From: Actinomycetales bacterium
GTDB lineage: Bacteria; Actinomycetota; Actinomycetes; Actinomycetales; Microbacteriaceae
Assembly (NCBI GenBank): GCA_015655255.1
Contig: JAATFJ010000391.1
Span: forward strand, 1 to 5,186
Length of the DNA: 5,186 nucleotides
Direction: 5' to 3'
The notes under the pieces were generated by a model. The model did not search any database. It was given only the letters and a program-made list of their open reading frames with translations, and was not told the origin of the DNA. A program made the position numbers and the translations under genes. Of the stretch, positions 255-3,331 are shown piece by piece. Within the stretch, counting starts at the first letter, position 1. The number at the start of each line of letters is the position of its first letter.

Positions 255-908
255 TCAGTCCTTCACCTGGATGCCCGCCGAGGTGGCGAAGGCGGGTGCG
301 AGAAGCTCCACCTGCCGCGGGCTCAGCGTCGTGCCGCGCAGGCTGTTCGTGTCCAGCACCGTCATGAGGTCGAGGCCGCGCAGATCAACATCGCTCGCAC
401 GAAGCCCGCGCGGATCGAGTTCCTCGCTTCGGCAGTCCTCGAAGCAGACCCGGCTGAGCACGGCCTGCGGCACGTCCAGCGCGCGGATCGTGCAGCCGTG
501 CACGAGGACATCGGTGGCCTGTGCCCCGCCGAGCGTGAGGTAGTCGATGCGCAGATCGCGCAGTTCCAGCTCGCCGATGCGGGTGGCGCTGAGATCAAGC
601 GTGCCGATCCGCCCGCCGGTGATCTGCACGCGGCGCAGCCCCGCATTGCGGAGGGTGAGCGAGGCGACGCGGACGTCCGAGAGGGCCACATCGAGGAGCG
701 TCGCCCCGGCGAGGTCGACGGTGTGCGCATCGAGTGCGAGCACGCATTGCTCCCAAGAGGAGTGCGCGAGGTCGGCATCGCCCGTGACCGTGACGCGCGC
801 GGCGAGGAGGTCGTCCCCGCGCCGGGGCAGGGGACGGGGATCGAGCACCGGGGGAAGATCGGGAGCGGAGACACGGGGAGCGGCGGGGGATTCGGTGCGA
901 CGAGCCAT
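255..908 (-). CDS. Pentapeptide-repeat protein
   Basis: This 217-residue protein has a polar, proline-rich N-terminus (residues 1-35) followed by about 150 residues with a five-residue rhythm and small or hydrophobic residues at the central position. Examples are [24 protein letters not shown] and VDLRGLDL, between about residues 45 and 185. This pattern is that of the right-handed quadrilateral beta-helix of pentapeptide-repeat proteins. The short tail (188-217, [14 protein letters not shown]) is probably a helical cap. No signal peptide or membrane segment is visible, so a cytoplasmic protein is expected. Some members of the family (MfpA, Qnr) mimic DNA and protect gyrase, but most have no known role, and nothing here points to gyrase. 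I chose the ATG at 908 because AGGG lies 8 nt upstream of it. An ATG at 1007 would run the gene through the divergent promoter and the RHH gene. The gene is divergent from the RHH-VOC operon across 67 bp. Confidence 0.82.
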
Positions 909-932
909 GATGTCGACCCTAGACGGAGGCGC

Positions 933-975: not shown

Positions 976-1125
976 ATGCAAGCCTCCGAGTCTAAAGCGC
1001 AGTTCAACGTCTACCTGCCCCCGGAACTCGTGCGCGCGGTGAAGCATCGCGCGATTGACGAGGGGATGAGTCTCTCCGCGCTCGTGGAGAAGGCGCTCAG
1101 TACGTATCTGGGCGGGGAATCATGA
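976..1125 (+). CDS. Small ribbon-helix-helix (CopG/Arc-type) DNA-binding protein
   Basis: The protein has 49 residues. A short polar N-terminus leads into the beta-strand QFNVYLPP (9-16), helix [15 protein letters not shown] (17-30), the turn MSLS (31-34) and helix [12 protein letters not shown] (35-45). This is the strand-helix-helix layout of CopG-family regulators, which dimerise and place the paired strands in the DNA major groove. The length is typical of a minimal RHH domain with nothing attached. The ATG at 976 is fixed by the strand it must include and by the promoter just upstream. Its stop codon overlaps the VOC start as ATGA (1122-1125), so the two are probably translationally coupled and act together. 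The likely role is a transcriptional regulator of its own operon or an antitoxin-like partner. The sequence does not decide between these, and the target DNA is inferred only from the palindrome at 933-946. Confidence 0.85.
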
Positions 1126-1811
1126 CCGTCGTCCAGCAGATCGTCTTCACAGGGCATCCGGAGCGTTGGCTGACGCTCGCCGAGGCGCTCGGGTTCGTGG
1201 CTCCCTATCCGCCGACGTCGGAATGGGGCGAGTTCCGTGCCGATGGCAGCCTCGCCGTGCGCCGCGCAACCGGGGGCCAGCCCGCGGGGTCCGTGGCACT
1301 GCAAGTGCTCGTCGAAGACTTGGGCGCCGCGCAGTCGGCGCTGAGCGGCTTCGTCGTGAAGCGGGAGTCGATAGAGGGCATCGGAGACGTCCTGACCGTG
1401 GATATCGGGCTGCGATTCTCCGTCTCCGAGGGTGACCTCGGCGCGCCGACCGGTGAGATCTCGGTCGCTCCGGTCCTGTTCCAGGACGATTTCACCGCGC
1501 CTCGTCGCGCGCTTACCGCGCTCGGGCTGCGCCCGGACCTCGCCTCGGACGGCGGAGGCTGGCTCGCGCTGCTCGCCGATGGCGGATCCGTCGGGGTGCA
1601 CGGCGGCACGCCCGCCCGCGTCGGCCTTTCCTTCGAGGCGCTCGGTGACCTCGATGCGCTCGCCGAGCGTCTGCGCGGAGCGGGTTTCGACGCGGCGATC
1701 GTGGATGAGGCCTACGCCCGCACCATCCGCATCCCCGATCCCGACGGCGGCGAGGAGATCTGGATCAACGGCGCTCAGGACGACCTGTACGGCTACCATC
1801 GCGAGGCCTGA
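1122..1811 (+). CDS. Two-module VOC (glyoxalase/bleomycin-resistance fold) family protein
   Basis: The protein has 229 residues. Two modules of about 110 residues can be made out, each starting with a short strand and a helix in the VOC manner: 1-108 ([12 protein letters not shown], helix TLAEALGF) and 111-229 ([12 protein letters not shown], helix [11 protein letters not shown]). The clearest family mark is near the C-terminus, [17 protein letters not shown] (203-218), equivalent to the DPDGNxIEL strand of glyoxalase-fold enzymes. Glu211 and Glu212 are candidate metal ligands. The usual first-strand histidine is not seen in module 1, so a metal site, if present, would lie in one half or between the halves. 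Known VOC proteins include isomerases, extradiol dioxygenases and drug-binding proteins; no substrate can be read here. The protein looks cytoplasmic. It follows the RHH gene with a 4-bp overlap. The preceding GGCGGGG is only a weak ribosome-binding site, which favours coupled translation. Confidence 0.75.
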
Positions 1812-2082
1812 GCACGGCCGCAGGCACCGCGCGCTCTGCCGCTGTCCGCTCCCTCTCCACAGCCGTGTCCCGCCGCTCGTGGCGTGTACTCCTCCGCAGG
1901 ACTTGTACGTTTCCGAAGGTCGAAATCCGGCAGAACGTCCTTCTGAGGTGCACAATTCCTGCGAAAGCGCACGGCGGGGCGGACACCCGACTCTTCCTGC
2001 ACATTCCGCGAGACGGGAGTTTTCGTCAACAGGAGCTTGTTTTTGCCGCGGTGGTCTGGACCGTTCCCGCACACTCTTCTTC
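1812..2082. other. Intergenic region holding repeat copy A, with no convincing gene
   Basis: This 271-bp stretch between the VOC stop and the nuclease start has no reading frame with credible protein features. It contains repeat copy A (1881-1980), described separately. The rest is unassigned. Around 2028-2045 there is AACA-GGAGCT-TGTT followed by TTTTG, a 4-bp stem with a short T-run that is too weak to call a terminator. Upstream of the start at 2083 no Shine-Dalgarno sequence is visible. CACACT at 2070-2075 is placed where a -10 element for a leaderless start would be, but it is a poor match. Confidence 0.6.
1881..1980 (+). repeat. Direct repeat copy A (100 bp), upstream of the nuclease gene
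   Basis: This block aligns without gaps to 2941-3040 (offset exactly 1060 bp) at 85 of 100 positions. The core 1891-1940 differs from 2951-3000 only at base 1908 (C here, T there). Similarity drops to background on both sides. Inverted-repeat arms inside the block are AGGACTTGT (1898-1906) and ACAATTCCT (1952-1960), which pair with one mismatch. GTGCAC (1948-1953) and GCGCAC (1967-1972) are 19 bp apart, as in copy B, but the further boxes of copy B are missing here. The block is non-coding by every sign, although its core is open in several frames. It looks like a dispersed, partly palindromic element; its copy number in the genome is unknown. Confidence 0.9.
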
Positions 2083-2922
2083 ATGGAACGTACGAGCCAC
2101 CTTGCCGAGTACGTCCACAGCCGTGGCGGGATGATCCGCACGGAGCCGCTGAGGGAACGGAGATTCGGGCGGAGGGCCATCGAGGAGGCGATCCGCGCGG
2201 GAGTCCTTGTGCGGCCGCGGCGGGGGTGGGTGGCGGTGCCGACGGCGGAGCCGATCCTGCTCTCCGCGGCGCGCGATGGCGTCGTGCTGACCTGCGTCAC
2301 GCAGGCGCGAAGAATGGGCTTATGGGTGCACGGAGACGACGGGCTGTTCCACGTCGCCTGCGCTCCTCATGTGCGGAAGCCTCCTTCTGCCGCACTCCAC
2401 GTGCACTGGGCACGACCTCTGGTGCCGCGCCCACCGGATACGCTCATCGATCCCATCGAGAATGTGCTCTCCCTCATCGCCGAGTGTGAGCCCCCTGAGC
2501 AGGCTCTCGCGACATGGGATTCCGCGCTCAACAAGGGACTTGTCACCATCGAATCGCTGTCGCGGCTCCCTCTGCGACCCGCGGCGCGACGGATCCTCGC
2601 CGACGCCACGCCGTATTCCGATGCGGGGACCGAGACCTATCTTCGGCAGCGGCTGCGTTGGCTGCACGTGCCCCTACGCATCCAGATCTGGATCGCGGGG
2701 CACCGCGTGGACGCGCTCCTCGGGAAGCGACTCATCCTGCAGATCGACGGCGGTCACCACGTGGGGGCGCAGCGCACGGAGGACAATCGCCATGACGCAC
2801 AGCTTCTGCTCATGGGGTACCACGTCATCCGCATCTCCTATGTCCAGATGATGCATGACTGGCCCGCAGTGCAGGAGCTGATCATGAGTGCGGTTGCTCA
2901 GGGGCTTCATGACGTGGCCTGA
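2083..2922 (+). CDS. AbiEi-like winged-helix / DUF559 (Vsr-like PD-(D/E)XK) nuclease-domain protein
   Basis: The protein has 279 residues. Residues 1-55 (LAEYVHSRGGMIRT, then FGRRAIEEAIRAGVLVRPRRGWVAVP) resemble the winged-helix N-terminus of AbiEi-type antitoxins. The middle (60-180) is a less conserved linker domain. Residues 182-275 match the DUF559/Vsr-like nuclease fold: Glu184 in GTETYLRQ, Asp210 in HRVDALLG, LILQIDGGHH (217-226), Arg236 with Asp238, and GYHVIRISY (245-253). Gln220 stands where many relatives have Glu, so catalytic activity is uncertain. Proteins of this build are common single genes in actinobacteria and are often annotated as type IV antitoxin-like, but no AbiEii toxin gene is adjacent here. 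The ATG at 2083 is chosen because the earlier open frame runs through the VOC gene and repeat A. The gene lies between two 100-bp direct repeats. Its codons include TTA (Leu80) and AGA (Arg77), unusual for a GC-rich genome, which hints at transfer. Its biological role is unknown. Confidence 0.75.
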   Translation: MERTSHLAEYVHSRGGMIRTEPLRERRFGRRAIEEAIRAGVLVRPRRGWVAVPTAEPILLSAARDGVVLTCVTQARRMGLWVHGDDGLFHVACAPHVRKPPSAALHVHWARPLVPRPPDTLIDPIENVLSLIAECEPPEQALATWDSALNKGLVTIESLSRLPLRPAARRILADATPYSDAGTETYLRQRLRWLHVPLRIQIWIAGHRVDALLGKRLILQIDGGHHVGAQRTEDNRHDAQLLLMGYHVIRISYVQMMHDWPAVQELIMSAVAQGLHDVA

Positions 2923-2940
2923 ACGCGAAATCTCGCTGTG

Positions 2941-3040
2941 GGCATGTGCACCTCCGCAGGACTTGTATGTTTCCGAAGGTCGAAATCCGGCAGAACGTCC
3001 GTCCGGGGTGCACAAGTCCTTCCGGAGCGCACGGCGGCCT
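2941..3040 (+). repeat. Direct repeat copy B (100 bp), downstream of the nuclease gene
   Basis: This is the partner of 1881-1980, in the same orientation, starting 18 bp after the nuclease stop codon. Its inverted-repeat arms are better kept: AGGACTTGT (2958-2966) pairs perfectly with ACAAGTCCT (3012-3020). The outer GTGC (2946-2949) and GCAC (3029-3032) extend the arms to 21 nt with 16 matches. The region between the arms (2967-3011) would form a large loop. The last part of the block is the first two units of the 19-bp array (3003-3078). It ends about 90 bp before the ileS -10 element. Confidence 0.9.
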
Positions 3041-3078
3041 CCGGGGCGCGCATCTCTTTCCGGGGTGCACGGCTGCGG
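3003..3078 (+). repeat. Phased array of four 19-bp units with GYGCRC boxes
   Basis: Four consecutive units of exactly 19 bp start at 3003, 3022, 3041 and 3060. Each begins CCGGRGYGCRC followed by 8 variable bases. The six-base boxes are GTGCAC (3008), GCGCAC (3027), GCGCGC (3046) and GTGCAC (3065), all spaced by 19, close to two helical turns. GTGCAC and GCGCGC are self-complementary. The first two units belong to repeat copy B and have counterparts in copy A; the last two are found only here. The array ends about 52 bp upstream of the ileS -10 element. It could be a set of phased protein-binding sites or a decayed tandem expansion of the dispersed repeat. Confidence 0.75.
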
Positions 3079-3129
3079 GAGAACCACTATGCGACCGCGG
3101 CAACGGCAGAAAACCGTGGCAGGGATGCG

Positions 3130-3135: not shown

Positions 3136-3153
3136 AGACGCACACGCATCGAT

Positions 3154-3167
3154 CCGGCCATCACCGG
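3154..3167 (+). promoter_or_regulatory. T-box Stem I hairpin with Ile specifier AUC
   Basis: The stem is CCGG paired with CCGG and the loop is CCATCA. The specifier triplet ATC is at 3160-3162 in the terminal loop. That placement is the mark of the ultrashort Stem I class, unlike firmicute T-boxes, where the specifier sits in an internal loop of a long Stem I. Confidence 0.85.
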
Positions 3168-3264
3168 GGAGCACTCGGAAGAACAACCTTCGGGTCCAGT
3201 AGAACCGAGCGGGGCAGGCCCGTCATCGCCGCAGGGAGAGTGGTCGCCGCGCAAGCTGTGGCAC

Positions 3265-3301
3265 GCGGGGTGGTACCGCGGTCCGCAAGGATCGTCCTCG
3301 C
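3265..3301 (+). promoter_or_regulatory. T-box antisequestrator (tRNA acceptor-end sensor)
   Basis: Helix A1 pairs GCGGGG (3265-3270) with CCTCGC (3296-3301). The seven-base bulge TGGTACC (3271-3277) follows; its TGGT can pair with the ACCA end of uncharged tRNA-Ile. Helix A2 pairs GCGGTCC (3278-3284) with GGATCGT (3289-3295), closed by a GCAA tetraloop of the GNRA type. The fold is unusually complete and regular, with only G-T wobbles as imperfections. It leaves the translation start free. Confidence 0.88.
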
Positions 3302-3331
3302 AGAAGAGCACACCACCACGACGCTTGCGAG
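3297..3331 (+). promoter_or_regulatory. Sequestrator hairpin masking the ileS ribosome-binding region
   Basis: CTCGCA (3297-3302) is complementary to TGCGAG (3326-3331), and a G-T pair (3303, 3325) can extend the stem. The right strand contains the only purine-rich stretch before the start codon. The left strand is also the 3' strand of antisequestrator helix A1, so the two folds exclude each other. With charged tRNA-Ile this hairpin would form and limit translation. The pairing is seen in the sequence; the switching is inferred from known T-box behaviour. Confidence 0.7.

Follow-up and report, generated by a model that had tools for sequence, protein, structure and literature searches.

A nuclease-domain gene between two structured repeats

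The window, that is, the whole 5,186-nucleotide stretch of DNA analyzed here (contig JAATFJ010000391.1 of assembly GCA_015655255.1, from a bacterium of the Microbacteriaceae), carries a gene for a protein with an AbiEi-like part and a DUF559 nuclease domain, on either side of which lies a copy of a palindromic element (Table 1). The first-pass annotation of this DNA had described the two copies as 100-bp, ungapped, non-coding and partly palindromic direct repeats with a nearly invariant core, and recomputation bears this out. An ungapped alignment of 1881-1980 with 2941-3040 has 85 identities in 100 positions, and the core at 1891-1940 agrees with its partner at 49 of 50; a repeat search lengthens the pair to 104 nt at 86% identity (1874-1977 and 2934-3037). 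In a local alignment the two flanks of the gene score 74, whereas 60 first-order Markov resamplings gave 12.2 +/- 2.1 and at most 18. Both copies lie outside the named genes and are imperfect palindromes. Their orientation is direct, as the inverted alignment scores only 20.5, and the inverted bracketing typical of REPIN-RAYT systems is not found in the window; in other loci the orientation of the bracketing varies because each copy is itself palindromic.

Table 1. Features of the window, with the half-sites of both element copies.
Feature	Position	Strand	Remarks
ABC-transporter-type gene	left edge of window		3' end only; name from a weak match
Pentapeptide-repeat-like gene	258-911	-	second gene from left
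CopG/RHH gene	between pentapeptide-repeat-like and VOC-like genes
VOC-like gene	1122..1811	+	left neighbor of the cassette; no Pfam match, name from the first-pass annotation; marks the empty site in L211/L216
Upstream element (copy A)	1886..1972		center about 154 bp 5' of DUF559 start
Copy A, half-sites W, W	1886-1903, 1905-1922	+
Copy A, half-sites W', W'	1936-1953, 1955-1972	-
AbiEi-DUF559 gene	2083..2922	+	279 aa; between copies A and B
Downstream element (copy B)	2946..3032		center about 66 bp 3' of DUF559 stop
Copy B, first two half-sites	2946-2963, 2965-2982	+	second one weak
Copy B, last two half-sites	2996-3013, 3015-3032	-
Candidate stray half-site pair	3053..3082	opposite strands	12/18 each; 3' of copy B; may be chance
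T-box-like leader of ileS	3140..3302	+	27.1 bits; Rfam gathering score 93
ileS	3' of the leader, right end of window

Each copy is an 87-bp element composed of four half-sites of about 18 bp in the layout W-W-loop-W'-W', with a spacing of 19 bp within each arm. By itself, the half-site word gives only a weak signal, with 35 matches in the window at 11/18 or better versus 27.7 on shuffled sequences, and all six matches of at least 13/18 to the query word, which was taken from copy B, fall within the two copies. The second half-site of copy B was placed by the 19-bp register, since it reads 10/18 to the query word where the threshold was 11. The regular geometry and not the word itself is the distinctive feature of the elements. 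The stray pair of words 3' of copy B could be a decayed partial element or could have arisen by chance. Searches with the exact 21-mer core gave no match in the genome-contig and viral-contig collections, while distant BLAST gave one chance-level match in plasmids and none in phages.

The gene between the copies had been named AbiEi-like/DUF559, which agrees with a DUF559 (PF04480) match of 27.5 bits, above the Pfam cut-off of 20.6, and with an AbiEi_4 match of 18.7 bits that is below its own cut-off of 25. In the predicted fold, residues 2-179 are AbiEi-like and residues 181-278 form a nuclease domain like those of Vsr and I-Bth0305I; AbiEi and Vsr/I-Bth0305I are the leading fold matches, the AbiEi-like fold being the best one. 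E184, D210, D222, H226, H237 and D238 are invariant in an alignment of 74 sequences. With DUF559 and the sub-threshold AbiEi_4 as its only Pfam matches, the protein has no match to a Y1/HUH tyrosine transposase. An AbiEi-like fold, as in the antitoxins of AbiE type IV toxin-antitoxin systems, is present, while none of the six window proteins scanned matches a DUF1814/AbiEii toxin, the next gene downstream being ileS. Every one of 59 sampled Microbacterium genomes has a PF04480 match, as do 81 of 118 genomes from its class. We know of no established function for DUF559 proteins in these bacteria. A Microbacterium-type DUF559 locus, with 53% identity to the window protein, also occurs in a record titled Planococcus (L046), which is likely mislabeled or contaminated.

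Bracketing in homologous loci and paralogues

After alignment with 17 homologues, the DUF559 protein served to fetch 75 related loci; of the resulting 76, the window included, the 67 with a gene length of 780-900 bp were counted. The upstream and downstream flanks of the same gene are alike (local score >28) in 43 of these 67 intact AbiEi-DUF559 loci, compared with 121 of 4422 pairings (2.7%) of an upstream flank with the downstream flank of another locus and with 2 of 183 control windows of the same size. The cross-locus control is conservative because its top pairs come from close relatives, e.g., L031 and L041. In 36 of the 67 rows, the best match of all is the gene's own downstream flank. 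Three of the nine loci excluded on gene length (L010, L063 and L070; the others are L056, L062, L064, L071, L072 and L075) nevertheless show strong flank pairs.

Bracketing extends to distant paralogues, which were scored slightly differently from the 67 loci, as was the class-wide set. Among 30 PF04480 loci from 30 Microbacterium genomes, chosen as best matches and 28-57% identical to the window protein where they match it, 27 exceed the 95th percentile of the cross-locus scores (16.7) and eight exceed the 99th (41.4, a value lifted by a few look-alike pairs). A first rough pass had given 17 of 25 above 28, five of the 30 loci being unreadable, and a few of the pairs are short or differently built (L187, L196, L199 and L208). 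In the class-wide set, for which gene starts are rough, six of 29 loci exceed the 99th percentile and eight the 95th. Two-sided bracketing by cognate palindromic repeats, as in REPIN-RAYT, is found in the window, in most of the 67 homologous loci and in most of the 30 paralogue loci. Bracketing of AbiEi-DUF559 genes is the rule and no accident, and the link between repeat and DUF559 protein, which the first-pass annotation had put forward as a possibility, is well supported.

A constant layout with a changing word

In 45 loci selected by a flank score of at least 28, the median distance from the center of the upstream element to the start codon is 150.5 bp, and that from the stop codon to the center of the downstream element is 59 bp. 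Across 108 arms, taken from 36 loci whose palindromes are clear, agreement between the two words of one arm is 0.565 for a shift of 18/19 bp, versus 0.534 with the other arms of the same locus, 0.377 with the arms of other loci and 0.29-0.34 at the other shifts tested. W differs by species and locus, while the four-word layout is constant. The elements of two loci score above 30 in all six pairs whose proteins are at least 0.8 identical, but in one of 16 pairs at 0.7-0.8 and seven of 54 at 0.65-0.7. The element therefore usually turns over faster than the protein, and both copies of a locus change together. A Mantel test of element similarity against protein distance in the 45 loci gave a rho of -0.30 for the whole protein with species relatedness uncontrolled; because the winged helix-turn-helix, middle and nuclease parts all contribute and relatedness is uncontrolled, recognition of the word cannot be assigned to any single part. 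Some pairs of loci in different genomes have look-alike bracketing words (L019/L028, L182/L185 and L196/L199); close relationship, transfer or convergence might explain them.

Dispersed copies in relatives

Dispersed extragenic copies, another trait of REPIN-RAYT, occur in relatives. In genome G001, the element of locus L011, from M. arabinogalactanolyticum, occurs 14 times beyond that locus (E <1e-5), and the same word is found at 11 places beyond the bracketing pair in G204. Besides their bracketing pairs, G002, G003, G004 and G005 carry copies at no fewer than two, five, three and four places, respectively, as found with a joined query of six elements, and G043 at six or more. G002 to G005 answered mainly to their own element in the joined query, from which G001's own element was absent; weaker cross-matches arose between look-alike words, mainly where pieces from L010 and L031 matched in G001. 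The window piece of that query gave no match among the best 40 candidates per genome in five genomes. When 24 loci were scanned with the window proteins, a DUF559 match was found in the home locus L076 only.

Thirteen of 149 genomes of the genus matched the G001 element at E 1e-7 when the best six candidates of each were scored; G001, G063 and G204 gave at least 12 rows each and the other matched genomes at least one to four. In G204, a DUF559 gene at 391301-392122, whose protein is 74% identical, is bracketed by the G001 word at 391199-391285 and 392233-392322. G063 has nine copies of this word, though its ileS site (L216) lacks gene and elements; its three DUF559 matches (E 1e-30 or better) are at most 56% identical and none lies beside the nine copies. 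Five of seven fetched G204 sites (of 11) and six of seven fetched G063 sites (of nine) coincide with sites among G001's 14. No fetched site is common to G204 and G063, and of the sites in G206 one is a G001 site and one a G204 site. In G206, DUF559 was matched over residues 95-277 only, in a frame of 212 residues (L304), and the genome yielded only two copies of the cognate element; gene and element are perhaps a decaying pair. At one site shared by G004 and G043 (L150/L158), the element lies within a long predicted open reading frame in both species, with about 168 bp extra in L150.

Proposed partnership and its alternatives

We propose that copies A and B are probably the cognate elements of the gene that they enclose, in a partnership like REPIN-RAYT but built on an unrelated nuclease. 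The AbiEi-like part would bind each element at its four half-sites, and the Vsr/EDxHD-type nuclease fused to it would act on the DNA there or close by. The gene and its two bracketing elements would form a single cassette, passed on, acquired or lost as a whole. Other copies of the element lie around the genome in relatives, mostly between genes; the nuclease would take the role of a Y1 transposase, and cutting followed by repair may copy or maintain the elements. Autoregulation through the upstream copy would be compatible with all of this. Of the steps that we infer, half-site binding has the best support, and cutting or nicking at the element, with repair copying or preserving it, has the least; the spread and function of the elements are likewise put forward conditionally.

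Not every locus shows the bracketing: the flanks of 24 of the 67 loci score 28 or less, and five of these loci do not exceed the cross-locus median of 15. A comparison of copies at 11 shared sites speaks against rapid spread, since they resemble each other about as much as the sequence around them does (mean 0.85) and more than the copies of one genome do (0.76-0.79); concerted evolution of the dispersed copies was not seen. Because many of the examined copies are at the same place across species, they are long-lived rather than restless.

Autoregulation is the main rival as the sole function. The elements would then be regulatory sites only, with self-repression via the upstream copy as in AbiEi and Rv2827c, the other copies serving as operators or decoys and the nuclease acting elsewhere. 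AbiEi and Rv2827c bind 23-bp inverted repeats in their own promoters, and the rv2827c promoter contains four such repeats within -1 to -131 (PMC7319586); here, the best match in structure is to the AbiEi-like fold, and in many loci the upstream element is about 100-150 bp before the start. A second copy just past the stop codon is not predicted by such a function. Moreover, a rough gene caller placed 18 of 46 dispersed loci, some of which are one site in two species, between tandem genes, 13 between convergent and six between divergent genes, and nine in predicted open reading frames. The 13 convergent cases among the 37 loci outside reading frames are therefore, at least, not in promoters. 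We regard regulation as the sole function as rather unlikely.

A transposon-like unit, in which the elements are the ends of the gene-bearing unit and the dispersed elements its non-autonomous derivatives, seems less likely still. It could account for the joint absence of the gene and both elements in two relatives with the RHH-VOC-ileS order of the window (L211 and L216), in which the T-box leader comes after the VOC stop. The empty site between the VOC gene and the ileS T-box that the first-pass annotation had asked for does therefore exist, but neither relative retains the single repeat that excision between the copies was expected to leave, and ordinary deletion explains the absence equally well. 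Occupancy is also patchy: among 30 Microbacterium ileS loci, the best 30 of 58, a DUF559 match lies within the fetched 1.5 kb upstream of ileS in seven, G001 included and L234 with a partial match, and 23 are without one. Related DUF559 genes are located elsewhere in other loci, though these may be paralogues. On the other hand, the gene lies directly 5' of ileS, within 700 bp, in 29 of the 75 fetched loci and thus looks inherited. Three loci with the order ABC, pentapeptide gene, ileS (L219, L220 and L223) are without DUF559, and by eye their gaps show no obvious element. The leader in the window, despite its sub-threshold score, is probably a divergent actinobacterial ileS T-box.

Of the dispersed sites, the close relatives G004 and G043 have three in common, and three more carry an element in G043 and none in G004; one of the latter keeps a half-remnant in G004, which therefore points to decay at that site. 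The site of L084 is empty in a further relative, G019. At L156, whose site is empty in G004, a short tandem repeat at about 1455-1510 runs into the element. A target-site duplication was not established, as cross-species alignments with flank identities of about 79-93% do not fix the exact ends of the element. Mobility, as first suggested, is supported in part: the joint absence of gene and elements at ileS and the G043/G004 differences, the one case of decay aside, speak for it, and the many copies at shared sites speak against it. That common repeats landed on both sides of the gene by chance, with no link to the protein, is very improbable: dispersed copies without a DUF559 gene alongside do exist, but bracketing in homologues and in distant paralogues with different words is far above both controls, which contradict chance as the sole explanation.

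Relation to known systems and implications

The proposed partnership between nuclease and element resembles REPIN-RAYT in its logic. A REPIN-RAYT gene is bracketed on both sides by its own palindromic elements, these have dispersed extragenic copies, and gene and element vary in step from one species to another (PMC2817692; PMC3116915); all three traits recur here. The early comparison with REP sequences and RAYT transposases, made with the proviso of an unrelated protein, was apt in both respects. Here, an AbiEi-like part and a DUF559 nuclease replace the Y1/HUH transposase, the element has four half-sites in an 87-bp layout with direct copies in the window, copy numbers are low and the hosts are Actinomycetes. 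The AbiEi-DUF559 system is not a member of REPIN-RAYT: the logic is alike, the enzyme is not. In contrast to AbiEi/Rv2827c of AbiE-type toxin-antitoxin systems, a nuclease domain is fused, ileS instead of a DUF1814 toxin gene lies downstream, and copies are also found after the gene and, in relatives, genome-wide. Vsr/EDxHD nucleases, including the homing endonuclease I-Bth0305I and Caulobacter VsrA, differ by lacking the fused AbiEi-like DNA-binding part; in the window, no intron or disrupted host gene was seen, and no methyltransferase is among the genes scanned. Empty sites, such as those that a homing endonuclease would cut in order to spread, do occur, both at ileS and among the dispersed sites. 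Titles, abstract openings and passages of the open-access literature contained no report of DUF559-linked repeats.

We give an even chance to the broader interpretation that a second gene-repeat partnership has evolved independently beside REPIN-RAYT, in which AbiEi-DUF559 nucleases of Actinomycetes each have private four-half-site palindromes that bracket the gene and populate the genome, word and protein change together, and the nuclease maintains or spreads the elements by cutting and repair. If so, each DUF559 protein would own private elements, with its target written beside its gene, and binding and cutting assays would open up a large family of uncharacterized nucleases. An independent second case would also be at hand for asking why bacterial genomes tolerate nuclease-linked repeat populations.
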